NCBI GenBank assembly: GCA_001303705.1
Contig: LJUI01000016.1
Location: forward strand, 1 to 28,212
Length of the DNA stretch: 28,212 nucleotides
Reading direction: 5' to 3'
Source: a candidate division TA06 bacterium SM23_40
Lineage (GTDB): Bacteria > LJUI01 > SM1-40
The number at the start of each line of letters is the position of its first letter. Within the stretch, counting starts at the first letter, position 1. Position numbers and translations under genes: made by a program. The notes under the pieces were generated by a model, which was not told where the DNA came from, ran no database searches, and was given only the letters and a program-made list of their open reading frames with translations. Shown one piece after another: positions 697 to 13,680 of the stretch.

Positions 697-1887
697 TCAC
701 CAGACGATCTGCTCCTCCCCGCTGGACGATGCTGGCTCGTGCACGGTGAACCAGATCGTATCCTCGTCCCACACTTCCTCCGGGAATCCCGCGCTGGCCG
801 AGAGACGCCATGTGCCCAGCGGAGTCTGCCACGGTACGTTGTACCGTTGGAGCGTCTGCCAGGAGGAGTTCGCCGCGAAGGTCGTGTACGCCGGACCCTG
901 CAGCGGATTATGCGGCCACGGCTCCCCTTCGGGTGTCCACAGCTCGACGATCCCCCAGCAGGACTTGGGTTCATCGTGGCAGTTCACGACGCTGTACAGC
1001 ACTCTCCAGCGGTCTCCTGCGGCGACGGACTTCGATTCCGGTGTCACATAGACCACCAGCTCCTTCGACTGGTCGAAGAAGAGCGCACCCATGTCGCCCC
1101 GCGTACTATCAGGATCAAGGGAATCAGGATGGCCTGCATCGATGCTGGGTGAGGGCCAGAGCAGGCGTACGTCCCGTCTTCCGACCCGCACGAACATCGG
1201 ATCCTCGTCCAGGTTCCCGAGCCCCGTCCAGCCGCCCTCGACGTTGCTGTAGGTGACGATGGGCTCACTGCTCAGATCCACGTGGATACTGCTCCCCGTC
1301 CCTGCCTGGTTGTTCCAGACGATGCTGTTGAAGACCGTAGGGTAGGAGTGATAGAAGCAGACTATCCCGCCGCCTTCGTCAGCCTGGTTCCCCCCAATGG
1401 TATTGCTTGCGATGATCGGGTCAGAGGCAGTACAGGCGATTCCCCCGCCATAGTACGCCACATTCCGAACGATCACATTGCCGACGATCGTCGGCGAAGA
1501 AGCCAGGGCACATCGAATCCCTCCCCCGCCGCCAGGAAACCACCCGTTCGTGATCGTGAACCCCTTTATCACTGACTCCGGACCCTCTCCACGTGTGAGG
1601 TAGAAGGCACGGTGGGGATCGGAGCTGTGACCTTCACAATCGATGATCGTTGCCTCCGGTCCGTTCTCCGACATGACCACGATCGCCTTGCCCCAGAAGT
1701 CGATATCGCGGTTTCCGTCCCCCGTGTACATACCATCTGCCACGACTACAGTATCACCATCGACCGCGGCATCGACTCCCGCCTGGATGGTGGGATACTC
1801 GCTCGGTACACTGAGAACGAATGCCGAGAGATCGAGACACAGCCCGAGCACCATACCAACACCTGCGATAATCGCCAACGTCCTCAC
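697..1887 (-). CDS. Secreted right-handed beta-helix protein with shared C-terminal domain
   Basis: This gene encodes 396 residues from a GTG at 1887, preceded by GGGAGGGAG 6-8 bases upstream. Longer in-frame starts up to 2064 would add an arginine-rich, non-signal-like extension. Residues 1-25 form a signal peptide. Residues 30-57 carry the opening YPTIQAGVDAAVDGDTVVV. Residues ~110-200 hold repeated N-x4-GGGI-x-C turns of a parallel beta-helix. Residues ~211-270 contain YSNVEGGW, LDEDPMF and SIDAGHPDS, the usual end of such helices. From ~279 the ~105-residue C-terminal domain found in the neighbouring subtilase and carboxypeptidase begins, followed by a short acidic tail. No catalytic residues are evident; such helices usually bind or cleave polysaccharide or act as surface adhesins. 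The gene may be co-transcribed with the gene 177 bases upstream and ends at a clear terminator. Confidence 0.88.
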   Translation of the reverse strand: MRTLAIIAGVGMVLGLCLDLSAFVLSVPSEYPTIQAGVDAAVDGDTVVVADGMYTGDGNRDIDFWGKAIVVMSENGPEATIIDCEGHSSDPHRAFYLTRGEGPESVIKGFTITNGWFPGGGGGIRCALASSPTIVGNVIVRNVAYYGGGIACTASDPIIASNTIGGNQADEGGGIVCFYHSYPTVFNSIVWNNQAGTGSSIHVDLSSEPIVTYSNVEGGWTGLGNLDEDPMFVRVGRRDVRLLWPSPSIDAGHPDSLDPDSTRGDMGALFFDQSKELVVYVTPESKSVAAGDRWRVLYSVVNCHDEPKSCWGIVELWTPEGEPWPHNPLQGPAYTTFAANSSWQTLQRYNVPWQTPLGTWRLSASAGFPEEVWDEDTIWFTVHEPASSSGEEQIVW

Positions 1888-2064: not shown

Positions 2065-3066
2065 CTACGGCTCCACCACCCTGATAGTGAACCTGTCCGT
2101 GTCGTACAGCGTTGCCGGAGGAAGTCCGATGCCGGAGCGATATCCGTACGTGCCGGCCACCGCGGACAGAGGCACATCGTGAACGAGGTGGCGTTGCACC
2201 ACGGCCCCTGCCGGCAGGGTGTAGTGGTCCGGCCCCAGAACGGTCCGAGTGCCGCCGCCCGGCAGGACTGTCTCACTGAGCACCCACATCAATTCAGGCT
2301 GTGCCCAGCGGTTGATCACGGTGTATGTCACTCCGAGCTGCCCGCCGGCAGAGACCTGAGATGTGTCAGGCGTCAGATAGAGCGTCAGATAGTCATCCTG
2401 GTCGAAGAAGTACGCACCTATGTCGCTCCGCGTGCCGTCCCCATCGAGTGAATCCGGATGTCCGGCGTCGATGCAGAGCGACCCCCAGAGAAGTCGAAAA
2501 TCGCGTCGCTCCGCCAGGACGAAGAGCGGATCCACGTCGAGGTTGCCCTCGCCGGGCCACCCCCCCTCCACATCGCAGTATGTCACCACCGGATACGACT
2601 CGAACTCCGCTATGATCTCGTCAGCCTCATTGCCCCAAAGGACGGTATTATTGATGGCGGGCGAACTGAAGCCCCACGCGTAGAGGCCGCCTCCCAAGGA
2701 ATCTGCGGAGTTTGCAGTTATCGTATTTCGATTGATAGCAGGCGATGCGAACGAGAGGAGATACATCCCCCCTCCTAACAGAGAGCTGTTGCGGGCGATG
2801 ACATTGCGAGCGAACGTCGGAGACGCCGCGATGCACGAAACGCCGCCGCCATACCAGCCGCTGCTGTTGCCGACGATCCAGTTGCGCTCGATGAACGCCG
2901 CGGAGTAGTCGGCACAGAAGAGCCCACCAGCATCCACCTCCGATATGTTGCCCATTACCACGTTCCTGACGACGAGTGCCGGTGACCCCATGAGGCCGAT
3001 GGCGGCACCAGAGGCAGCGGTATTGGCCACGATCAGATTGTCTCTTATTTTTGGAGTAGAGTGCAT
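2065..3066 (-). CDS. Beta-helix protein, C-terminal part of a gene split by an in-frame TGA
   Basis: This is the distal half of one gene whose proximal half is 3172-3699. Both halves are in the same frame, and the frame is open from 3171 down to 2065, so only the TGA at 3174-3172 separates them. The coordinates given begin at the first ATG (3066), which has no good ribosome site, so independent translation is doubtful. The protein shows about six further beta-helix turns (GGGVSC, GGGMYL, GGGLYAW), then YCDVEGGWPGEGNLDVDP and CIDAGHPDS. It ends in the ~105-residue shared C-terminal domain: VSAGG, VLPGGGTR, LGP, VPLSAVAGTYGY, DTDRFTIRVVEP. It is either a recent pseudogene, a readthrough product or the result of a base error. 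Its C-terminal domain is intact and conserved, which argues against long decay. Confidence 0.75.
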   Translation of the reverse strand: MHSTPKIRDNLIVANTAASGAAIGLMGSPALVVRNVVMGNISEVDAGGLFCADYSAAFIERNWIVGNSSGWYGGGVSCIAASPTFARNVIARNSSLLGGGMYLLSFASPAINRNTITANSADSLGGGLYAWGFSSPAINNTVLWGNEADEIIAEFESYPVVTYCDVEGGWPGEGNLDVDPLFVLAERRDFRLLWGSLCIDAGHPDSLDGDGTRSDIGAYFFDQDDYLTLYLTPDTSQVSAGGQLGVTYTVINRWAQPELMWVLSETVLPGGGTRTVLGPDHYTLPAGAVVQRHLVHDVPLSAVAGTYGYRSGIGLPPATLYDTDRFTIRVVEP

Positions 3067-3171
3067 GCACGAGATGGCACCGCCGGTCGTCCCGTGGTTG
3101 CCCCGGAAGGTGTTCCGTTCGATGATCGGCGCTGAATCTTCGCAGCGGATCCCGCCGCCGCCACAGATCCC

Positions 3172-3699
3172 TCACGTGCCCAGAGCGGTGTTATTCAGGA
3201 ACAGGTTCCCCACGATGAGTGCCATCGACGTATCTGCACAGTAAATCCCGCCACCATGATAGGCCACGTTGTCCTCTAGGATGCACTCTGTAATCGTCGG
3301 CGAGGATCCTTCGCACAATATCCCCCCACCGAAATCATAGGTAAAGTACCCGCCCCTGATGCCGAGCCCCTGAACCACAGAAGATTCGCGCTCCCCCTTG
3401 TTGAAGTGGAACGCGCGATGCCAATCGGAAGGGGTCCCCTGGCAATCGATGACCGTGGCTTCGGGCCCGTTCTGGGAGGACACGAGGATCGCCTTCCCCG
3501 TGAACTCCAGGTCGCGGTTCCCCGTGCCGGTGTACACCCCGTCGGCTATGAGCACGGTATCCCCATCGACTGCCGCATCGATCCCTGCCTGGATCGTCGG
3601 CTCTTCGGCGGGCACATGGATGACGAGCGCCAAAGCGCCCGTGGTCGGCGTGAGTAACATTGTCAGGACAGCCAGAATCGACAACCGGTTTCTGTTCAT
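3172..3699 (-). CDS. Beta-helix protein, N-terminal part ending at a premature TGA
   Basis: This part has 175 residues from the ATG at 3699 (a GTG at 3702 directly precedes it; GAAGAGG lies just upstream). Residues ~1-25 form a signal peptide (hydrophobic run ILAVLTMLLTPTTGALAL). Then come PTIQAGIDAAVDGDTVLI and VYTGTGNRDLEF, nearly identical to the paralogs at 1-221 and 697-1887. The first helix turns are present (FGGGILC, YHGGGIYC). The frame stops after NNTALGT and continues without shift into GICGGGGIRC and the rest of the helix. In this turn the spacing between the conserved N and GGGI is about six residues longer than in the other turns. That places the stop within a small insertion. 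Transcription probably starts at the promoter at 3935-3963. Confidence 0.75.
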   Translation of the reverse strand: MNRNRLSILAVLTMLLTPTTGALALVIHVPAEEPTIQAGIDAAVDGDTVLIADGVYTGTGNRDLEFTGKAILVSSQNGPEATVIDCQGTPSDWHRAFHFNKGERESSVVQGLGIRGGYFTYDFGGGILCEGSSPTITECILEDNVAYHGGGIYCADTSMALIVGNLFLNNTALGT

Positions 3700-3934
3700 C
3701 ACCTCTTCTCGCTATCTTCGTGTTGGCGGCCAGCGCGGAACATCGCCAGACGACGATGAGCCGCTACCTCGTCCTCTCACTTCACAGACCCCGACAGGTT
3801 GCCGGAAGAGCCCGCTCCTACTGCCGCGCGCGCCTTTCGGGGCGCGAGCGCTCTGCTTGCTCCGGTTCAATCCTCGCTTCGATGAGGAACCGCGCCCACG
3901 GGCGATCCGGCTCCTCTGGCGCCCGCTTCACAGG

Positions 3935-3963
3935 ATTATACACAACTATCGTCGCGAGATCAA
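3935..3963 (-). promoter_or_regulatory. Sigma-70-type promoter for the split beta-helix gene
   Basis: Minus strand: TTGATC (3963-3958), 17-base spacer, TATAAT (3940-3935). The -10 box is perfect and the -35 box matches at 4 of 6. The start would be near 3928, leaving a leader of ~230 bases. It is divergent from the subtilase promoter at 4071-4100, so the 3703-4373 gap is a two-way control region. Confidence 0.55.
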
Positions 3964-4070
3964 GCACTATCTTCGTGTGCGCGCCCCGAGGGCCAGACCG
4001 CCGTTCGATCTGCGCGAAACGCGCTTTCTGGCAAAGGACGCTGGATGCGGTGGGCGCTGTGACTTCGGCG

Positions 4071-4100
4071 TTGACAATCGTGACGGATTGCTGCTATAAT
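4071..4100 (+). promoter_or_regulatory. Strong sigma-70-type promoter for the subtilase gene
   Basis: TTGACA (4071-4076), 18-base spacer, TATAAT (4095-4100): both boxes are perfect. Transcription would begin near 4107, about 267 bases before the ATG at 4374. Confidence 0.7.
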
Positions 4101-4181
4101 CCCTACCAGAGCCCCCTCCATTAACAACGCACCTGAGAAACGAACCCCGAAACGGCCCTCGCCCCGCCCATTTCGAGCCCT

Positions 4182-4281
4182 TCTCTATTGGTAGGAGCGG
4201 CTGTCACTCCGTTCCCCGTGCGGCGGACTCCACATACCAGGGAACACAGTCACTCATTTCCCTGTTCCCGCCAATAGGAGA
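4182..4281 (+). promoter_or_regulatory. Structured 5' leader of the subtilase mRNA
   Basis: A closing stem pairs TCTC-TATTGG (4182-4191) with CCAATA-G-GAGA (4271-4281, one bulged base). Inside it, GGGAACA (4240-4246) pairs with TGTTCCC (4263-4269). The fold ends about 80 bases before the ribosome site (AAGGAG, 4361-4366). It does not match any riboswitch consensus that I recognise. A role in translation or mRNA stability is inferred only. Confidence 0.35.
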
Positions 4282-4373
4282 TGGCATCCGCACGGTCTCT
4301 CCAGGTGAGGAGCAGAAGTCGGCAAGCCCTCGACGGACCAGGGCATCCACCGTCCAACAGAAGGAGTGTTCTC

Positions 4374-6257
4374 ATGAAACGAGCAGCGGTCATGAGCGGA
4401 GCTCTCGTAATGGTGATGGCGTTTGGCGCACTGGCATCGACCTCGTTCGTCGGCATCACCGCTCCCCTTCGCGAACAGATGGCGATGGTCAACTCAGACG
4501 AGCTGATACGCGTCAACCTGGTGATGACCAATCACCTCGACCCCGGATACCTGTCAGAACGCGCCGCCGGCATGAGCAAGGTCGAGCGACGCCGCTTCGT
4601 GCTGGATGAGCTCAAGAGATTCTCGGAGAGCTCCCAACGGGAAGTGCGGGGATATCTCGAGAAGATGGAAGCGTCGGGACACGTAGACAACATCCAGATC
4701 ATCTGGATGGCAAATGCGATCAACTTCGAGGCCACTCCCGCGGTGATCGAACGCCTTGCCCGTTTGAAGGGAGTGCGGAGCATCGACTGGGACGAGCCGT
4801 TCCCCCTCGAGACCCTCCTCGATCTGCCGGAGAAGACCCCGCACAGGGTGGGCGCTGGCGACCAGTATCTCTGGAACCTGGAACGGATCAGGGCCCCTGA
4901 GGTCTGGGATCTCGGCTTCACCGGACAGGGGGTCGTCATCGGCAACATCGACACGGGCACGGACTACAACCACCCCGATCTGGCTGACCACATCTGGATC
5001 AACGAAGGTGAGATTCCCAATAACGGGATAGACGACGACAACAACGGCTATATCGATGACTGGCGGGGGTGGGATTTCGTCAACAACGATAACGATCCCA
5101 TGGACCAGAGCGGCCACGGCACCAGTACCGCCGGGATCGCTGCCGGGGATGGAACCGGAGGGACCCAGACCGGCGTCGCCCCTGATGCCGAGATCATGAT
5201 CCTCCTGAGCGGCGGCGAGGGACCGGCCTGGGCGGCTGTCCAGTATGCCGCCGACAACGGCGCCGATGTCGTCACCAGTTCACAAAGCTACAAGTTCGGC
5301 TATCACCAGCCGGATTACGGCATGTTCCGCCAGATGGCCGAGTATGAACTGGCGGCGGGCGTCATCCATTCCAATTCGATCGGGAACCAGGGTGGCGATC
5401 CGGCGCACCCCATCCCCTGGAACATCTCCACGCCGGGGAATTGCCCGCCGCCGTGGCTTCACCCGGACCAGACGCTCATCGGCGGGCTGTCGTCGACACT
5501 CGGTTGCGGCGCAACCGACATCAACGACATCATCAAGAGCTACTCCGGGCGCGGGCCGGCTGCCTGGGAAGACATCCAGGCGTACTACCCATCCTATCCT
5601 CATCCGATGCCGCCAGAGTACTGGGACTACCCCTACGACAACGGGAACCAGATGGGTCTGTTGAAGCCCGACGTGAGTGCGCCGACCGACGTGACGACGA
5701 CGCAGCTGGGTGGCGGGTATACCAGCGGCTTCAGCGGCACATCCGCAGCCACCCCCCATCTCGGCGGTTCGCTCTGCCTCATGCTCTCTGCGGCGCCCTC
5801 TGCCACGCCTGCCATGCTCTGCGAGGCGATCCAGATGACGGCGCTCGATCTGGGTGCCCCGGGCAAGGATAACTTGTATGGTGCCGGAAGGATCGACGTG
5901 TACGAGGCAGTGCAGGCGCTCATGGTCGGCGCGGTCTCTCTCCAGCTGGCACCGGGAACCTCGTCAGTGCCGCAGGGCGGGACGTTTGAGATCGAGGTGA
6001 CGGCCACCAATAACACCGGTGAGGTGCAGGTGTTCGACGCGTGGGCCGACGTCGTTCTCCCGAACAGCAATCCCTATGGGCCGGTGGCAGGTCCCAGGAC
6101 AGTGACCCTCGGCCCAAACCAGACCCGGGTCCGGACAGTCACACAGCGGATTCCTTCGACTGCGCCGCTGGGAGCCTACACGTACTGCGGGAAGATCGGC
6201 ACCTATCCTGATGACGTTATGGATCAGGACTGCTTCGACATCGAGGTGACACCGTAG
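4374..6257 (+). CDS. Secreted S8 family serine peptidase (subtilase) with propeptide and shared C-terminal domain
   Basis: The protein has 627 residues. The ATG at 4374 is chosen because AAGGAG lies 7 bases upstream and a signal peptide follows at once (MKRAAVMSGALVMVMAFGAL); an upstream in-frame ATG at 4281 lacks both. Residues ~45-150 resemble an I9-type inhibitory propeptide. The catalytic triad is visible: Asp193 in NIDTGTDYNHPDL, His248 in QSGHGTSTAGI and Ser457 in SGFSGTSAATPH, with oxyanion Asn338 in SNSIGNQGG. An acidic insert at ~218-244 (GIDDDNNGYIDDW) looks like a calcium-binding loop. Residues ~521-627 are the C-terminal domain shared with the M14 protein at 7920-10385 and the beta-helix proteins. 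The product is an exported endopeptidase, probably matured by propeptide removal. It is a single-gene unit with its own promoter and a terminator at 6312-6358. Confidence 0.95.
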   Translation: MKRAAVMSGALVMVMAFGALASTSFVGITAPLREQMAMVNSDELIRVNLVMTNHLDPGYLSERAAGMSKVERRRFVLDELKRFSESSQREVRGYLEKMEASGHVDNIQIIWMANAINFEATPAVIERLARLKGVRSIDWDEPFPLETLLDLPEKTPHRVGAGDQYLWNLERIRAPEVWDLGFTGQGVVIGNIDTGTDYNHPDLADHIWINEGEIPNNGIDDDNNGYIDDWRGWDFVNNDNDPMDQSGHGTSTAGIAAGDGTGGTQTGVAPDAEIMILLSGGEGPAWAAVQYAADNGADVVTSSQSYKFGYHQPDYGMFRQMAEYELAAGVIHSNSIGNQGGDPAHPIPWNISTPGNCPPPWLHPDQTLIGGLSSTLGCGATDINDIIKSYSGRGPAAWEDIQAYYPSYPHPMPPEYWDYPYDNGNQMGLLKPDVSAPTDVTTTQLGGGYTSGFSGTSAATPHLGGSLCLMLSAAPSATPAMLCEAIQMTALDLGAPGKDNLYGAGRIDVYEAVQALMVGAVSLQLAPGTSSVPQGGTFEIEVTATNNTGEVQVFDAWADVVLPNSNPYGPVAGPRTVTLGPNQTRVRTVTQRIPSTAPLGAYTYCGKIGTYPDDVMDQDCFDIEVTP

Positions 6258-6311
6258 CGGATCGCAGAGTGTCACTGACTGACAGTTCACTGACTATCAG
6301 TGATGAATGAA

Positions 6312-6358
6312 ATGAGCGACCTCGCGGGATCCGCAGAACCGCGAGGTTGCTCATCTTT
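6312..6358. terminator. Bidirectional intrinsic terminator between convergent genes
   Basis: ATGAGCGACCTCGCGG (6312-6327) pairs with CCGCGAGGTTGCTCAT (6339-6354): 16 base pairs with one G-U/A-C position and an 11-base loop. The plus strand continues CTTT and the minus strand TTTCATTCATC, so it can end both the subtilase transcript and the convergent transcript from 7706. Confidence 0.65.
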
Positions 6359-6509
6359 CGGCGCGAGTATTGACCTGAGCGCGGCCTCTCAGTGCCCACA
6401 CCGGCTCATCTGTATGCGAACGGCCCCCCAATTGTCAGTTGCTGCATGCAGGAAACAGGACCGCCGGTGCGGCGGTCCTGGCAACGCAGACCCTCTTTCA
6501 ACCGCTGCC

Positions 6510-7706
6510 TCACTTCGCCTCGTCCAGAGAGAGATATGGGAGGGCCGGTATCCTGCCGCACATCACGCTGTACGGGCCCGAACCAGCCGTCCAGATAACG
6601 GGGATATGAGTTGCCTGGGCCGGCACGCTCGGCGGCACATTAGGATGACGACAGTTACTCTCCCCCGTCGAGACCGCGAGCGGCATGATGCTCCAGTTGT
6701 TACCGTTCCACACTTTGTAGCAGATCGCTCTATCGCTCGGACCGCCCATAACACGCGAATAGACGACATAGAGCGTCTCACCAGAGCGCGTCAGCATCGG
6801 AAGAAAGTTGTTGTTGCCCGGATTCTCATCAACCACCCGATACTGCCACTCACCTGTGCCTCCCGAAAAATGCTTCCACGCATGCCGGAGCAACCCCGAA
6901 TAGTCCGTATCCTGCCACACAAGATGAAACGTACTGTCCCCTACCACCGAAACGCTGAACTGGCGCGTGCATGTCCCCCAGTAGATCGTCGAATCCGCAT
7001 GCCCCACCCACTCAGACCCATCCCACCTGTAATACCGATACCCCTGCCCATCATACCAGATCACCGCCGCCGGCTTCCCCATATACTCAACTGAGCCGAT
7101 CCGCACGTTCGAATACCCCGTCTCGCGAACATACCCCGAATCCGCCGGCGTCACATACCAGCTCGCACCACCATCCGTCGACCGGTGATACCGCACATTC
7201 CCCACCGCCGAATAGGAGGACCGCGTGAACACCCACACCGTATCGCCACCACTAGAGGCCAGCAGTGACCCCCGTTTCCAGTGCCCGGGCGCCACCGTGG
7301 CGAGCGTTACGACAGTGCGCAGATCCCCATATGTCCGGGCCGGTGCATCCATCCGCCTGAAACGCTGCGTCTGGTCACCGGCCTCGGGAAATGTGAAAAA
7401 GAGGTTCGACTTATCGTCACCGGCCATCATCGCATGGTAGTCGAGCCAGTTGGCAATGGTAATCGAGTCGGGATCGAGGCCTGTCCAGGTCAGCCCGCCG
7501 TCGGTGCTCATCTTGAGATTGCCCTGGTGCCGGCCGAACAGAACCCACCACCAGTCCGGGTTTTTCTGCGACACGTGCACCTTGTGCCGCGGTATGCCCA
7601 GAGTGGCATTGGGATCACTTGTCGTGGCAATCAGAATATCCGACAGGCTCTGCATCGAGGTGAGACAAACGGCACAAAGAACCGATAGGACTATGGCACG
7701 CAACAT
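6510..7706 (-). CDS. Secreted Asp-box (BNR/sialidase-like beta-propeller) protein of unknown function
   Basis: The protein has 398 residues. The ATG at 7706 is chosen over 7739 because AGGAG precedes it and a signal peptide follows (MLRAIVLSVLCAVCLTSM). Two Asp-box motifs are visible, STDGGLTW (67-74) and STDGGASW (176-183). Further Trp-rich beta-strand repeats follow (AVIWYDGQGYRYYRW, FHLVWQDTDYSG, ICYKVWNGNNW). This matches the fold of sialidase-like propellers. The Arg triad and the Tyr/Glu pair of true sialidases cannot be assigned, so enzymatic activity is not claimed. It lacks the C-terminal domain shared by its neighbours and ends shortly after the last blade. The 213-base gap upstream shows no convincing promoter; it may be read from the M14 gene before it. 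Confidence 0.8.
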   Translation of the reverse strand: MLRAIVLSVLCAVCLTSMQSLSDILIATTSDPNATLGIPRHKVHVSQKNPDWWWVLFGRHQGNLKMSTDGGLTWTGLDPDSITIANWLDYHAMMAGDDKSNLFFTFPEAGDQTQRFRRMDAPARTYGDLRTVVTLATVAPGHWKRGSLLASSGGDTVWVFTRSSYSAVGNVRYHRSTDGGASWYVTPADSGYVRETGYSNVRIGSVEYMGKPAAVIWYDGQGYRYYRWDGSEWVGHADSTIYWGTCTRQFSVSVVGDSTFHLVWQDTDYSGLLRHAWKHFSGGTGEWQYRVVDENPGNNNFLPMLTRSGETLYVVYSRVMGGPSDRAICYKVWNGNNWSIMPLAVSTGESNCRHPNVPPSVPAQATHIPVIWTAGSGPYSVMCGRIPALPYLSLDEAK

Positions 7707-7919
7707 CTCTCTCTCCTGCGGAACACGTCCCTCCACCACCTACCCAGTTCACAGCTTCCGCAGAGCCCGCACACATGGCCTCATTCGGCCAGCGCTTTCA
7801 TCCTGACCAGCATCTCCGCTTCCCGGGAAATGGATCTTATCGCCACCTACGCCACTGCCCCGTACTCCATGGATCCCCGCTCAACGCCATGTCTGCTCGG
7901 CAGCACGCCGTGTCACGCG

Positions 7920-10385
7920 TCACTCTTCGACGACCGTGAACAGGAACGTATCGTCGTCGATAAGGTTATTCGGCGGCGTCCCTATCTGGGCCGTGTACCC
8001 ATACTCACCGAGCGGCGCGATCATCGGCACGTTGTGCGACACCGGCACCACCAGCACCTCACTGGGCTGAAGCGTCACCGGCACCGGGCCGAGCAGATAC
8101 CGTGTTCCGCCCCCCGGGAGCTGCACGAGGGTTCTCGCATAGAAACTCTGCATCTGCGTCGTCAGATTCGTGACAGTCGCAGTGTAGCTCAGAACCCCGC
8201 CTCGCGGCACGATCGTCACGTCCGGCGCTAGCTCGACCGTCGCGATCTGAGGAGCCGACACCTCGACGTCATCGATATGCCAGCCTTCCCGCACAACACC
8301 CTGATCACTCCCGAACCGGAACCTCAGTCTCACTGCCCCCATGTAATCGGACAGATCGAATACCGCCTCGCTCCAGTCATAGGCGCCGGAGTACAGCGGG
8401 GTACCGACGGGGAACGGGCCTGTAGTCCCGCGGGACGTGTAGGGGTACCCGCCCTCGGGTTCAACCTCTACCCAGTTCACGCCCCCATCGACGGTAATCT
8501 CGACGATGCCGCCATCGTAGGCTCGGCCGGGATAGGCCTCTGAGGTCTCGGCCTCCACCCAGTGCCACATGGTGAGTGTCGAATTGGGATCGAGGCCGAA
8601 CGGCGGGGTCATCAATCCCGCGTCGTCGAAATTGGAATAGGGACCGGTCCCCGTATCGCCGCACTTCCAGCTGTAGCTGCCGGCGGGGGTGTGGTTCCGC
8701 TCTGTGCTCAGATGCCACTCGTCGTTGAATCCCTGCGTGATGGCCTCGTGTGTCCAATCGCCGACACCTGCCTCCATATCGTCAGCGTATCCGGTTGTGA
8801 CGACCCATACCTCGAACGTATCGGTCCAGGCATGCCCGCCACTGGCGGTGATCTCGATAGCGATCGGCAGCGCATAGGGTACCGGCGTGGCGTGCGCGAT
8901 CTGGATGACAAACGGATCCGATGCGTTATTCCCGGTTCCGATCGGCGGGATATCCCCGAAGCTCGAGGTACCCTCGATCACCTCGAGGTACGGATCCCAC
9001 TCCGTGATCGTCCCTTCCACATTGTTCGCTTCAGCCATACCCGAGTTGCGGACCTTGACGATCAGATCTGCTACCTCCCCGGGATCGATCCGCATATTGG
9101 CATTGCCGCCGACTGTATCGTCAATGAGGTGGCCGTTGTAGTGCACGTCCACCGAACCCGCCACCCTCATCATGAACAGGTTCGCCCCCAGGTTCTCCTG
9201 GAACTGGCCGAGGATGGTGTTCGTGTCCGGCTGCCAGAATGCGCTCCCGACCTCATTGCTGAACCCGAAAATCTTGGGCTTCGTCGTCTGCTCTCCATAC
9301 TCGTAATCGATGCTGCCGCCGTTCACGAGGTAGAGGAGCTCCCACGGGGTCCCCGGGTCGTAGTTGTTCACCCTCGTCAGACTATCGGCCAGCTCGACAT
9401 ATATGTCGTGATCGGGCGTGTAGATATAGTCATAACCCCAGGGATAGAGACAGAGATCCCCGTAGCTGTGGTAGTCCTGGCAGAACGTGAACTCGTGGGA
9501 TTCCATCAGGTCGCGCATCGCCTGGGTCTCCGGCTCGGAGAACGGAGCGGGACCTCGATACGTCTCGCTCGACGGAGTCGGGCTGGAACCGATATTGTCA
9601 TAGCCCCACATGTACCCGTAGTTCCGATTGAGATCGACGCCGTAGATGCCGCCGCCGTTATCTCTCCTGTTCTTGCGCCACATACCGCTCGAGTATGTCT
9701 CGTTGTACACATAGCCATCGGGATTCACCACCGGCACAAACCAGACCTCTCTCGTGTCCACGATCTCAGTGATCTCTGGATTGATGCCGTAGTTCTCCAC
9801 GAGGTGCTCGATCGTATAGATGCAGATCGAGCAGCCGATCGGCTCGCGCGCATGATGGACACCGTCGAACAGCAACTCGGGCTCGTCAGGATCCTCGTAT
9901 GTCGGATCATCCGAGACCTTCATCGCCCAGAGGATACGGTCCTCCCAGGTACCTCCGATATTGATCTTCGGAGTGGTGATATCAGGATACGCCGCATGGA
10001 TCATATCGAGGGCGTCGATCATCTCCTGGTAGGTATAGTACGGGCCGAAGGCGATTCGGCCCGCCCCGAACTGCTTCTCTCGATGGGCCGCGAGGTCAGG
10101 GATCAATACCTCCACATCGAGGCCGAGCTCAGTCTCGAGAAATCTCACCTCCTCGGGCGTCGTCACGATCTCGACGTAGGTGCCTGCCTTGACCGTGGCG
10201 ATATCGAGATCGAGCAGCCTTATCTGCTGCACAACCTGTTCCATATAGTCCTTCGATTCCGGATAGACCCTGGCCAGCATCTGGGTAGCTGCAGCACCTG
10301 CTTCGGGCCTTGCCAGCGCAATGCCCAGCGCGCAGACGATGGCAAGTGCCAGCCCCTTCATAGATAGTGCCCGGACCGATCTCAT
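7920..10385 (-). CDS. Secreted M14 zinc carboxypeptidase with shared C-terminal domain
   Basis: The protein has 821 residues. The ATG at 10385 follows GGGGGAG and opens a signal peptide (KGLALAIVCALGIAL). Residues ~34-110 form a propeptide-like region. The catalytic domain spans ~115-410. Zinc ligands are His178 and Glu181 (GVHHAREP) and His306 (QDYHSYGD). Substrate-binding Asn253-Arg254 lies in DLNRNYGY, and the likely catalytic Glu is Glu378 (GFSNEVGS). Residues ~411-530 form a beta-sandwich (DPGEVADLIVKVRNSG). Residues ~534-710 resemble the jelly-roll found after M6/M14 exopeptidases (DDMEAGVGDW ... GWHIDDVEV). Residues ~717-821 are the shared C-terminal domain (VPRGG, QLPGGGTRYLLGP, VPMIAPLGEYGY, DDDTFLFTV). 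It is a tandem paralog of 10523-13609 and has its own promoter at 10458-10486. It probably removes C-terminal residues from extracellular peptides. Confidence 0.93.
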   Translation of the reverse strand: MRSVRALSMKGLALAIVCALGIALARPEAGAAATQMLARVYPESKDYMEQVVQQIRLLDLDIATVKAGTYVEIVTTPEEVRFLETELGLDVEVLIPDLAAHREKQFGAGRIAFGPYYTYQEMIDALDMIHAAYPDITTPKINIGGTWEDRILWAMKVSDDPTYEDPDEPELLFDGVHHAREPIGCSICIYTIEHLVENYGINPEITEIVDTREVWFVPVVNPDGYVYNETYSSGMWRKNRRDNGGGIYGVDLNRNYGYMWGYDNIGSSPTPSSETYRGPAPFSEPETQAMRDLMESHEFTFCQDYHSYGDLCLYPWGYDYIYTPDHDIYVELADSLTRVNNYDPGTPWELLYLVNGGSIDYEYGEQTTKPKIFGFSNEVGSAFWQPDTNTILGQFQENLGANLFMMRVAGSVDVHYNGHLIDDTVGGNANMRIDPGEVADLIVKVRNSGMAEANNVEGTITEWDPYLEVIEGTSSFGDIPPIGTGNNASDPFVIQIAHATPVPYALPIAIEITASGGHAWTDTFEVWVVTTGYADDMEAGVGDWTHEAITQGFNDEWHLSTERNHTPAGSYSWKCGDTGTGPYSNFDDAGLMTPPFGLDPNSTLTMWHWVEAETSEAYPGRAYDGGIVEITVDGGVNWVEVEPEGGYPYTSRGTTGPFPVGTPLYSGAYDWSEAVFDLSDYMGAVRLRFRFGSDQGVVREGWHIDDVEVSAPQIATVELAPDVTIVPRGGVLSYTATVTNLTTQMQSFYARTLVQLPGGGTRYLLGPVPVTLQPSEVLVVPVSHNVPMIAPLGEYGYTAQIGTPPNNLIDDDTFLFTVVEE

Positions 10386-10457
10386 CTTGTCTCCCCCTCT
10401 CCTGCACGGTGACATTCCAGTTCATCCCGGGATCGTCCTCCGCCCCGGGCGACTCCC

Positions 10458-10522: not shown

Positions 10523-13500
10523 TCAGCGCCTCCCGCCGATGAGCACGATCTTCCGTATGGCCACGTCGTCCGAGGCCTCCAGCCGGCAGAGATAGATACC
10601 CGGAGCCACGGCACGACCCTGGCCGTCCCGGCCATCCCACATCACCTCACCCGGTCCGGCATCGACAAGGCCTTCCTGCAGCACGGCCACGAGCTGGCCA
10701 AGGGTGTTGTACAGACGGACAGAGACATGGGACCGACGGGGCAGAGAGTAGGCGATCCTGCACGTTCCGGGCGCCGGATTGGGATGACTCTGGCCCGCGA
10801 AGAACAGCGCCGGCCGGTCACCGCCACCAGAGCCTTCCCCTTCGGCGACTCCCGTGGTAGGAAGCCAGACGAGGATCCGGAACATGAGTGTGTCGCGCTC
10901 GGCCGTATCCGAGATGCCGTCCAGGCAGAACGATGTGTACACGACGCTGTACACACTCGTGGCGACACGCACGCCCGCCGAGCCGGAACTCAAAGGATAA
11001 ATGGGGCCGGGGATCCAGTAGAGGAAGGTCACCCCCGGGTCGACCGGATCGATCTCCTCAGCGAATGTCTGGGTGTTGGGCGGGCCCGAAAGATCCAGGA
11101 TCAGGCCGTCCCCGATTGTGTCCCCCGGCGCCCCCAGCAGTTGATCCCACCCGTTGTTGTATCCGACGTCAGCCTGCACGAAGTCCGCATGCATGTAGTC
11201 ATGATAGAACGCATTCGCCTGGGTGCCGCCTTGTGTCAGCGCGGTACCCAGTTGCTGTCCCGAGATGAAGAGATGGCCGCCATCGAGAAGGAAGCTGCGG
11301 AGCGCCTCCTGTTCCTGTTGGGCCGGCGCCCCTGCGGGGTAGATGGCGACGAGCTCACCACCCCCATACTGGCCCAGTGTGGCCTCATCGATCGGGCCGC
11401 GATAAAAAGCATTCCACATGTCGTGATCCACGCCGAGATTGTTGAGCGAACTGAGATAAGCATCAAGCGCCGGATAGATCGCTCGCGCACCGGGCAGCGG
11501 GTTCAGGTGCGCCACCAACCAGTCATTAACGAGATAGTGTTCGTAGACGATGCGCTCACCCTGCGCAAAGAACGAGAGCGAGGAGAAGCCGGCCAGGCTA
11601 TCGCCGTTCCCATCGTTTGCGAACTCGTCGCTCGCCGTGACATCCACATGAAAGTCCGATTCGAAAGAAGGCGACCAATAGCCACCGTAGGTACGGTCGT
11701 CCGGAAGTCCATCCCCGTGCGCTCCATCATCATACAGGGGAATCGTCGCGATGACCCCGCTATCCGGCGCTGCGATGGCAGCCTCCACATCCTGAAGGTC
11801 GCCGCCTTCCCAGATGGTCGTCGTGATCGTCACCTGGCCGCCTACCGTGCAGTAACGTGGCGTGACATCGACATCGAGGAACTCCGGCGGAAACTCGTCG
11901 CTCCCGACCACTGGAATGAGGAGGGTATCGCTGCCGACGGGCTGGTTAGCCGAATCCTGGAATTCGACCGCGAACCCCAATGTCTCACCGTCGGGACAGT
12001 CTGAGAGGACCTTGAACCAGTATGCTGGCACATCATATGAGTGCACGCCCGGGCCGACATCGCCGAATTCCATGTGTCCCATCGACCAGTCCACGCCCTC
12101 GAACGGTGCGACCCAGGGGCTATCGGTAGAGAGCGCAGCCGTCACGCCATCAGCCGGGCGGACGCTCTGGTTGTTCAGGTCGAGGCGGAGAAGGATATAT
12201 TCTCCCGGATCGACCTCGCCATCATCGTCTCCGATATTGTACAGATAGCTCTCGTCGCCCCCGGCGACTACGGTATACGCTTCTACTGTGAGGTCCGGAT
12301 CGAGATTTCCGGCCCAGCGGAGCATGAACAGGTTCGCTCCCAGATTCTCCTCACATTGTTCGATGATGATATTCGTATCCGGCTCCCAGAACCAGTCTCC
12401 CACCTCGTGGCTCACGCCGAAGATCTTGTTCTTGAAGATCTGCTCACCGTATTCGTAGTCGATACTCCCGCCATTGACGATATAGAGAACCTCCCAGAGC
12501 GTTCCATACTCGTACCCGTTGCCCACCGTGAGGCTCTCGGCGATCACGCGATAGAACGCGTCATCCTCGGTGTAGACGAAGTCGTACCCATACGGCAACA
12601 AGCACAGGTCGCCAAAGCTGTGGAAGTCCTGGGCGAAGATGAATTCGTGGGAGTCGATCAGACTCCGCATGGCCTGCGTCTCCGGCTCTGAGAACGCGTA
12701 TGGACCGCGGTAGGTCTCGTCTTCGGGATACGGGCTCGAGCCAAGGTTGTCGTATCCCCACATATATCCCCAGTTCCGATTGAGATCGACCCCATAGATC
12801 CCCCCGCCGTTGTCCCTGCGATTCTTCCGCCACATCCCGTCCGGCAACGTCTCGTTGTACACATAGCCGTCAGGGTTGACGACCGGCACGAACCAGGCCT
12901 CGCGCCCATCAACGATCTCGGTGATGTCGGGAATAAGGCCGTAGTATTGACAGAGATACTCAATGGTATGGAGACAGATCGAGCATCCGATCGGTTCACG
13001 TGCATGCTGTACACCATTGATCAGCACTTCCGGCTCATCCGGATCTTCAACTGTCGGATCGTCCGAGACCTTCATCGCCCAGATCGTTCTCCCCTCCCAA
13101 GAGGCGCCGAGATCGATCTTCTCCGTGGTGATGTCGGGGAACCGGGCATGGAGCGAGTCGAGCTCCTCCACCATCTCCGCATAGGTGTAGTACGGACCGA
13201 AATCAAACGGCATATAGCCGAATTGCTCCAGGCGATGAGCGGCGAGGTCCGCGATGACTACCTCAGCTACCGCCCCCCGGTCCTCCAGAGAGACGAGCTC
13301 CTCGCGCGTCGCGATAATGTCGACCCAGAGCTCAGGGTCGGTCCTGAGCGTGGCGATATCGAGGCCGAGCCGGAGGAACTCGCGCGCCTCCTCTCGGGAC
13401 TCAGGGTAGACTCTCAGCAACATCTTCGCCGGCTGGCCAGGAGAGAGGCTCTCACTCGACCCCGCCCGGCTCGTGGCTGGGCCAGCTGCTAACGAGACAG

Positions 13501-13609
13501 CCGCCGCCCCCAGCAGAATGACCAGCCCCACACACAAGGCTGGTCTTTTCAAAACGGACGGACCGTACCTACGATTCTTCGCGAATGTCACCGAGTTCCA
13601 AGGCTGCAT
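10523..13609 (-). CDS. Large secreted M14 zinc carboxypeptidase with FlgD-like/type IX-like C-terminal sorting tail
   Basis: The protein has 1028 residues from the ATG at 13609 (a GTG directly precedes it; AGGAGG lies 7 bases upstream of the ATG). The signal anchor at ~20-42 is ALCVGLVILLGAAAVSLA. The catalytic domain at ~138-435 closely resembles the neighbour's: His202 and Glu205 (GVQHAREP), His330 (QDFHSFGD), Asn277-Arg278 (DLNRNWGY), Glu402 (GVSHEVGD). Residues ~436-680 form beta-sandwich modules. Residues ~687-917 resemble a glutamine-amidotransferase-like or flavodoxin-like fold (FLLDGGHLFISGQQLG), without an evident nucleophile. Residues ~939-1024 are a FlgD-like domain with the classic order HPNP, IAYSLP, VRLYNTLGQLV, WDGRDGQGR, APGIYLCRL and a basic end. 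Such tails mark cell-surface or type-IX-secreted proteins in FCB-group bacteria. The neighbour's shared C-terminal domain is absent. Confidence 0.93.
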   Translation of the reverse strand: MQPWNSVTFAKNRRYGPSVLKRPALCVGLVILLGAAAVSLAAGPATSRAGSSESLSPGQPAKMLLRVYPESREEAREFLRLGLDIATLRTDPELWVDIIATREELVSLEDRGAVAEVVIADLAAHRLEQFGYMPFDFGPYYTYAEMVEELDSLHARFPDITTEKIDLGASWEGRTIWAMKVSDDPTVEDPDEPEVLINGVQHAREPIGCSICLHTIEYLCQYYGLIPDITEIVDGREAWFVPVVNPDGYVYNETLPDGMWRKNRRDNGGGIYGVDLNRNWGYMWGYDNLGSSPYPEDETYRGPYAFSEPETQAMRSLIDSHEFIFAQDFHSFGDLCLLPYGYDFVYTEDDAFYRVIAESLTVGNGYEYGTLWEVLYIVNGGSIDYEYGEQIFKNKIFGVSHEVGDWFWEPDTNIIIEQCEENLGANLFMLRWAGNLDPDLTVEAYTVVAGGDESYLYNIGDDDGEVDPGEYILLRLDLNNQSVRPADGVTAALSTDSPWVAPFEGVDWSMGHMEFGDVGPGVHSYDVPAYWFKVLSDCPDGETLGFAVEFQDSANQPVGSDTLLIPVVGSDEFPPEFLDVDVTPRYCTVGGQVTITTTIWEGGDLQDVEAAIAAPDSGVIATIPLYDDGAHGDGLPDDRTYGGYWSPSFESDFHVDVTASDEFANDGNGDSLAGFSSLSFFAQGERIVYEHYLVNDWLVAHLNPLPGARAIYPALDAYLSSLNNLGVDHDMWNAFYRGPIDEATLGQYGGGELVAIYPAGAPAQQEQEALRSFLLDGGHLFISGQQLGTALTQGGTQANAFYHDYMHADFVQADVGYNNGWDQLLGAPGDTIGDGLILDLSGPPNTQTFAEEIDPVDPGVTFLYWIPGPIYPLSSGSAGVRVATSVYSVVYTSFCLDGISDTAERDTLMFRILVWLPTTGVAEGEGSGGGDRPALFFAGQSHPNPAPGTCRIAYSLPRRSHVSVRLYNTLGQLVAVLQEGLVDAGPGEVMWDGRDGQGRAVAPGIYLCRLEASDDVAIRKIVLIGGRR

Positions 13610-13680
13610 CACCCACCCTCCTGGTCTGTGCCATGTGCGTCTGGTACGACGTGTGCGCGAGTGCCCATATCACTCGCGGG

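Follow-up and report, generated by a model that had tools for sequence, protein, structure and literature searches.

A C-terminal RbmA-like module in predicted exported proteins of candidate division TA06 bacterium SM23_40 and its relation to type IX sorting tails

Here we report a family of C-terminal domains of about 108 residues that ends four neighboring proteins with unrelated main domains in a 28,212-nucleotide stretch (the window, meaning the whole stretch that was analyzed) of contig LJUI01000016.1 from candidate division TA06 bacterium SM23_40, and that recurs throughout this draft genome (2.88 Mb in 189 contigs, 90% complete). We describe the homology, copy number, position and predicted fold of this module, its exclusion from proteins bearing the sorting tail of the type IX secretion system (T9SS), the exchange of the two tails among homologous proteins and its distribution relative to SprA and GspD, from which we infer export of the carrier proteins, a ligand and retention. 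The reading that we favor, at even confidence, is that of a mobile immunoglobulin-like/fibronectin type III (Ig/FnIII) domain resembling RbmA of Vibrio cholerae, which would stand at the mature C-terminus and act after export, and would not itself drive passage through T9SS. Given the resemblance to RbmA and the mature C-terminal place, retention at the cell surface or in a matrix is probably the most economical role, by analogy with RbmA. The module is unlikely to be a type IX signal, because it stands alone in bacteria without SprA and precedes a normal type A tail in bacteria with SprA.

The module, its fold and its copies

The four window tails (Table 1) align over their full length with 15 invariant columns, their pairwise Smith-Waterman z values range from 10.9 to 30, and none of 1000 shuffles per pair matched the observed score; by sequence comparison, they are homologous. 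The initial annotation of the window, made from the sequence alone, had proposed one domain shared by four tails, and the tails lie where it placed them, with the motifs that it described (V-P-x-x-A-P-L-G-x-Y-x-Y, I-G-x-P-P, D-x-D-x-F-x-F-x-V and L-P-x-G...G-P) and behind main domains that Pfam confirmed as unrelated (two beta-helix proteins, an S8 subtilase, and an M14 carboxypeptidase with a MAM domain). Its count of four stands for the window, with the second beta-helix gene split by a TGA codon, and does not extend to the genome, which holds about 105 copies. It had recognized no named sorting domain in the tails, and they indeed have no match in Pfam or NCBIfam; our literature search found no paper that names the domain.

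In the source genome, a profile of the four tails matched 103 places at E <= 1, nearly all far under 1e-7, and a broader profile built on 54 copies matched 105 places at E <= 0.001, in keeping with the many matches that had been anticipated. Among the 104 module open reading frames (ORFs) with a visible 3' end, the module ends within 8 residues of the stop codon in 81, at 9-40 residues in 15 and further away in 8, six of the last having another domain after the module. A strictly C-terminal position, as initially proposed, is thus a strong bias that admits these 8 internal copies and a penultimate place in the SprA-positive relatives described below. Four beta-helix proteins continue beyond the module into a domain of about 205 residues without a family name (DYLIWEADPTPISGQPIMDALSALGRSSEFVEG...), which gave no Pfam match in the one of the four that was scanned; the remaining post-module domains are a C13-like peptidase in one protein and FG-GAP repeats in another. 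Signal-peptide-like starts, assigned heuristically, were found in 64 of the 82 module ORFs with an intact 5' end vs 72 of 170 other long ORFs, in agreement with the initial view that the carriers are exported.

Each protein has one clear copy. The largest carrier group comprises 39 beta-helix proteins recognized by motif, the others being M14, C25, C1, S8, PPAD-like, M1, Omp28, BNR and FG-GAP proteins, and the main domains form 26 BLAST clusters. The nearest neighbor of a module belongs to the same main-domain cluster in 58 of 95 cases, compared with 22 when the labels are shuffled, so much of the expansion reflects whole-gene duplication; the other 37 neighbor pairs join different clusters, with up to 56% identity, so the module has also moved between unrelated proteins. 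As judged from these sequence relationships, the family has grown by gene duplication plus module exchange. No copy was found on plasmids by tblastn.

AlphaFold models of the M14 tail (copy 4; predicted local distance difference test score, pLDDT, 97.2) and of the most divergent window tail (copy 1; pLDDT 95.5) adopt one and the same eight-strand Ig/FnIII sandwich, which upholds the common beta-sandwich predicted for the tails. Among about 1000 chains, the best VIA match of both models is RbmA, with Z 14.7 over 107 residues at a root-mean-square deviation (rmsd) of 2.5 A for copy 4 (next unrelated chain, 12.7) and Z 13.8 over 107 residues at 2.4 A for copy 1 (next unrelated chain, 12.4). Searched against PDB sequences, the family profile likewise ranked RbmA first (E 4.3e-7); Foldseek alone placed other Ig domains first. 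The RbmA-like FnIII family PF22021 weakly matched 4 of 54 modules (best E 0.00039), NEW3 (PF10633) 7 of 54 (best E 3.6e-5) and Big_2 3 of 54. RbmA shares the Ig/FnIII sandwich of the module, is its best PDB profile match and is exported, as the module proteins are predicted to be, but it is a dedicated biofilm protein, whereas the module is appended to enzymes and beta-helices. The NPCBM-associated NEW3 domain and CARDB (Z 12.2-12.3) resemble the module in their Ig-like fold and occur in extracellular proteins of bacteria and archaea; they differ in that the matches are weak and in that a terminal position is no part of how those families are defined.

This unnamed family is large: three genomes have at least 136 copies each and the 2.9-Mb source genome has about 105. 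Its profile lets annotators label the ends of hundreds of predicted exported proteins in little-studied phyla.

Type IX tails in the same genome

The source genome encodes SprA (504.6 bits), a PorU sortase (631.5 bits) adjoining a PorV, and several further PorV-family genes, giving seven PorV-family loci overall. Two loci on separate contigs place SprA, PorU and PorV outside the Bacteroidota, to which a review describes T9SS as restricted. A search of this genome for PorP/SprF, whose genes are linked to T9SS type B tails, returned no match, with the control likewise silent everywhere.

FlgD_ig tails occur at 67 places in this genome, all close to the C-terminus, and because 48 of the 50 scanned match TIGR04183, the FlgD-like tail is, at the profile level, the known T9SS type A sorting domain. 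The 105 module ORFs and the 67 ORFs with FlgD_ig tails do not overlap at all, and the latter lack even a weak module match. The proposal that the module works beside the FlgD-like tail does not hold here, since no protein of this genome carries both. The two tails nevertheless meet on the same families: 68 of 98 module proteins have, in this genome, a homologue that matches them over the main domain and ends in a type A tail, and the two adjacent M14 carboxypeptidases of the window, which share 51% identity across 555 aligned residues, differ in their tails. Two C25 gingipain-like proteases on separate contigs end in the module and have a FlgD_ig-tailed homologue on a third.

The module and the type A domain (TIGR04183, PF18962; FlgD_ig is PF13860) are both C-terminal Ig-like sandwiches, and in this genome both occur on signal-peptide proteins from shared families. 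The module, however, is found without SprA and precedes the type A domain in SprA-positive relatives, and it differs in sequence. The type A profiles did not match any of the four window tails, nor did the type B profile TIGR04131, and no T9SS family appears in the Pfam tally of 54 modules; by profile, the module was rejected as a T9SS type A tail, and a type B tail seems unlikely. A lysine or arginine is present in the last 8 residues of 28% of modules vs 97% of type A tails, which are known for a conserved basic residue near the C-terminus, motif E (PMC11969387), and the mean net charge is -5.0 for modules vs +2.9 for type A tails. Each of the seven PorV-family loci has a type A-tail gene within 4 kb, a distance that takes in 16.8% of the genome; one of the seven has a module gene within 4 kb, a proportion not below chance.

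Carriers with and without SprA, and the proposed role of the module

No other genome in the compared set belongs to the phylum of the source genome. A scan of 40 other genomes gave five clear copies in G024 (our numbering) and weak ones in four others. The carriers include metagenome-assembled genomes (MAGs) of Poribacteria, Desulfobacteraceae, Abyssobacteria, Desulfobulbaceae, LCP-89, Calditrichaeota and one further bacterium. In G045 (LCP-89), G046 (Calditrichaeota) and G047, each with 136 or more copies, SprA is present, no GspD exceeds the cut-off, and a type A tail follows the module after a short linker in 46 of 47 sampled copies. G024, G041, G042, G043 and G044 have 1-8 copies each, no SprA match and a GspD of the type II secretion system (T2SS) above the cut-off, and no folded domain comes after the module in any of their 18 sampled copies; the absences of SprA and GspD rest on profile searches of genomes whose completeness is mostly unstated. 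The terminal module in the five SprA-negative carriers indicates that it is in use without T9SS, and the expected co-occurrence with one specific secretion gene set breaks down on the same carriers. Four of those 18 copies, all from the Desulfobacteraceae MAG, share an extension of about 20 residues with the pattern W-E-T-(R/T)...F, and the LCP-89 linker before the type A tail shows a similar W..SGE.F pattern.

A tree of 122 modules joins the SprA-positive copies in a single clade that also takes in three copies of the source genome (support 0.95), and 49 of 54 sampled copies of the source genome group with the terminal copies of SprA-negative bacteria (support 0.87). The source genome is unusual in being T9SS-positive with about 100 copies of mostly terminal type and no tandem of module and T9SS C-terminal domain (CTD).

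Under the favored reading, the module would be folded as the C-terminus of the mature exported protein and, after export, would keep its carrier, whether enzyme or beta-helix protein, on the cell surface or within an extracellular polysaccharide or protein matrix, much as the FnIII domains of RbmA do in Vibrio biofilms; FnIII-2 is the RbmA domain that binds Vibrio polysaccharide (PMC5605196). In SprA-positive relatives, cleavage of the type A tail would leave the module as the mature C-terminus, and in carriers without T9SS it would already be the last domain. A precedent for the former arrangement is the RgpB gingipain, in which an immunoglobulin superfamily (IgSF) domain stands ahead of the CTD as an IgSF-CTD tandem (PMC4804311); this Ig-like domain directly before a type A CTD becomes the mature C-terminus, which matches the place of the module in SprA-positive relatives. 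The RgpB domain is restricted to one protease family, whereas the module occurs on many main domains and is usually terminal in the source genome. NCBIfam choice-of-anchor regions (Q and J) lie upstream in some module proteins, at the position that a sorting or anchoring signal usually follows; these models describe the domain before the anchor, and the module occupies the anchor's place. In the source genome, members of the same families would meet two fates, with a type A tail leading to T9SS export and attachment by PorU, and the module leading to retention by the module itself. Families with either tail in one genome offer a natural experiment on the fate of exported proteins, which may contrast surface attachment by a type IX sortase with retention by an RbmA-like matrix domain. 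Of the roles initially suggested, anchoring or glycan attachment appears plausible by this analogy, and a sorting signal is less likely in view of the tandems with type A tails and the SprA-negative carriers.

Several observations weigh against the retention reading. Ig domains of glycosidases, complement and transglutaminases score only 2-3 Z units beneath RbmA, and with so many Ig domains close behind, the fold alone says little on function. RbmA is a dimer with two tandem FnIII domains, whereas module proteins carry one copy, and no ligand-binding residue was identified in the module. As for a possible T2SS in the source genome, both of its secretins fall under the GspD cut-off, one lying in a pilM-N-O-P-Q-like cluster and the other next to pseudopilin-like genes. 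Finally, action after export would not by itself explain why none of the 67 type A-tailed proteins in this genome carries the module, given that relatives combine the two; something else would have to account for it.

This exclusion, found despite the presence of SprA, PorU and PorV, is the best argument for a different explanation, which we consider possible but rather improbable: that in this lineage the module became a C-terminal outer-membrane sorting signal, of a class beyond T9SS types A, B and C or belonging to another exporter, and took the place of the type A tail on some 100 cargo proteins. Several signal classes are thought to be recognized by T9SS, the module shares its terminal place and Ig-like fold class with the type A tail, and the homologues that bear the other tail, the M14 pair and the C25 proteases among them, would fit such a replacement. 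Against it stand the ordinary type A tail that follows nearly every sampled copy in SprA-positive relatives, the terminal copies in five carriers without SprA, the lack of a type A or B profile match and of a conserved basic C-terminal residue, the opposite charge and the missing link to PorV genes. The stronger form of this proposal, that an RbmA-like domain displaced the type A tail as sorting signal on about 100 exported proteins of an FCB-like lineage with no other genome of its phylum in the comparison, so that each cell would run two mutually exclusive C-terminal sorting codes on shared protein families, seems doubtful.

It also seems unlikely, to a similar degree, that the module is a passive structural cap or spacer, passed on through duplication, that neither sorts nor binds. 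A generic Ig/FnIII fold with many weak relatives, such as NEW3 and Big_2, and the excess of nearest neighbors within one cluster would agree with a spacer, but more than a third of the neighbor pairs cross clusters, and a domain that occurs once per protein, is nearly always terminal and is in no case accompanied by a type A tail appears too constrained for one. Loss of type A tails by frameshift, contig breaks or gene decay, with the terminal place an assembly artefact, is highly improbable and largely refuted: the assembly is fragmented, one window copy has an in-frame stop and several copies lie at contig ends, but most module ORFs stop within 8 residues past the domain boundary, the same ending recurs in T9SS-less bacteria, and the 600 nt that follow each module ORF hold no type A tail on the same strand.

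Genes of the window and arrangement of module genes

The genes of the window and their tails are listed in Table 1. In the second beta-helix gene, the beta-helix repeats run on in one frame on both sides of the TGA codon (minus strand), which is either a nonsense mutation or a consensus error.

Table 1. Module copies, their carrier genes and the neighboring type A-tailed paralogue in the window
Feature	Position	Strand	Basis or remark
Module copy 1, tail of beta-helix protein 1	733..1065	-	Profile match; own AlphaFold model
Beta-helix protein 1	697..1887	-	Likely GTG start at 1887; signal-peptide-like MRTLAIIAGVGMVLGLC
Module copy 2, tail of beta-helix protein 2	2068..2394	-	Alignment, profile match
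Beta-helix protein 2	2065..3702	-	Broken by in-frame TGA at 3172-3174
Module copy 3, tail of subtilase	5931..6254	+	Alignment, profile match
S8 subtilase with signal-peptide-like start and C-terminal module	4374..6257	+	PF00082 E 3.8e-37
Module copy 4, tail of first M14 carboxypeptidase	7923..8246	-	Profile match; AlphaFold model
M14 zinc carboxypeptidase with InhA-like MAM domain and C-terminal module	7920..10415	-	PF00246 E 1.2e-66, PF20773 E 4e-7
Second M14 paralogue, FlgD_ig / T9SS type A-like tail in place of the module	10523..13612	-	Pfam, NCBIfam, BLAST
T9SS type A-like (FlgD_ig) tail of second carboxypeptidase	10526..10825	-	PF13860 34.4 bits, above cut-off; TIGR04183 21.2 bits, slightly under 23-bit cut-off

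Elsewhere in the genome, one contig carries a tandem run of about ten module-bearing genes, mostly for beta-helix proteins, and several contigs stop inside or near module genes, as if the repeats had broken the assembly.

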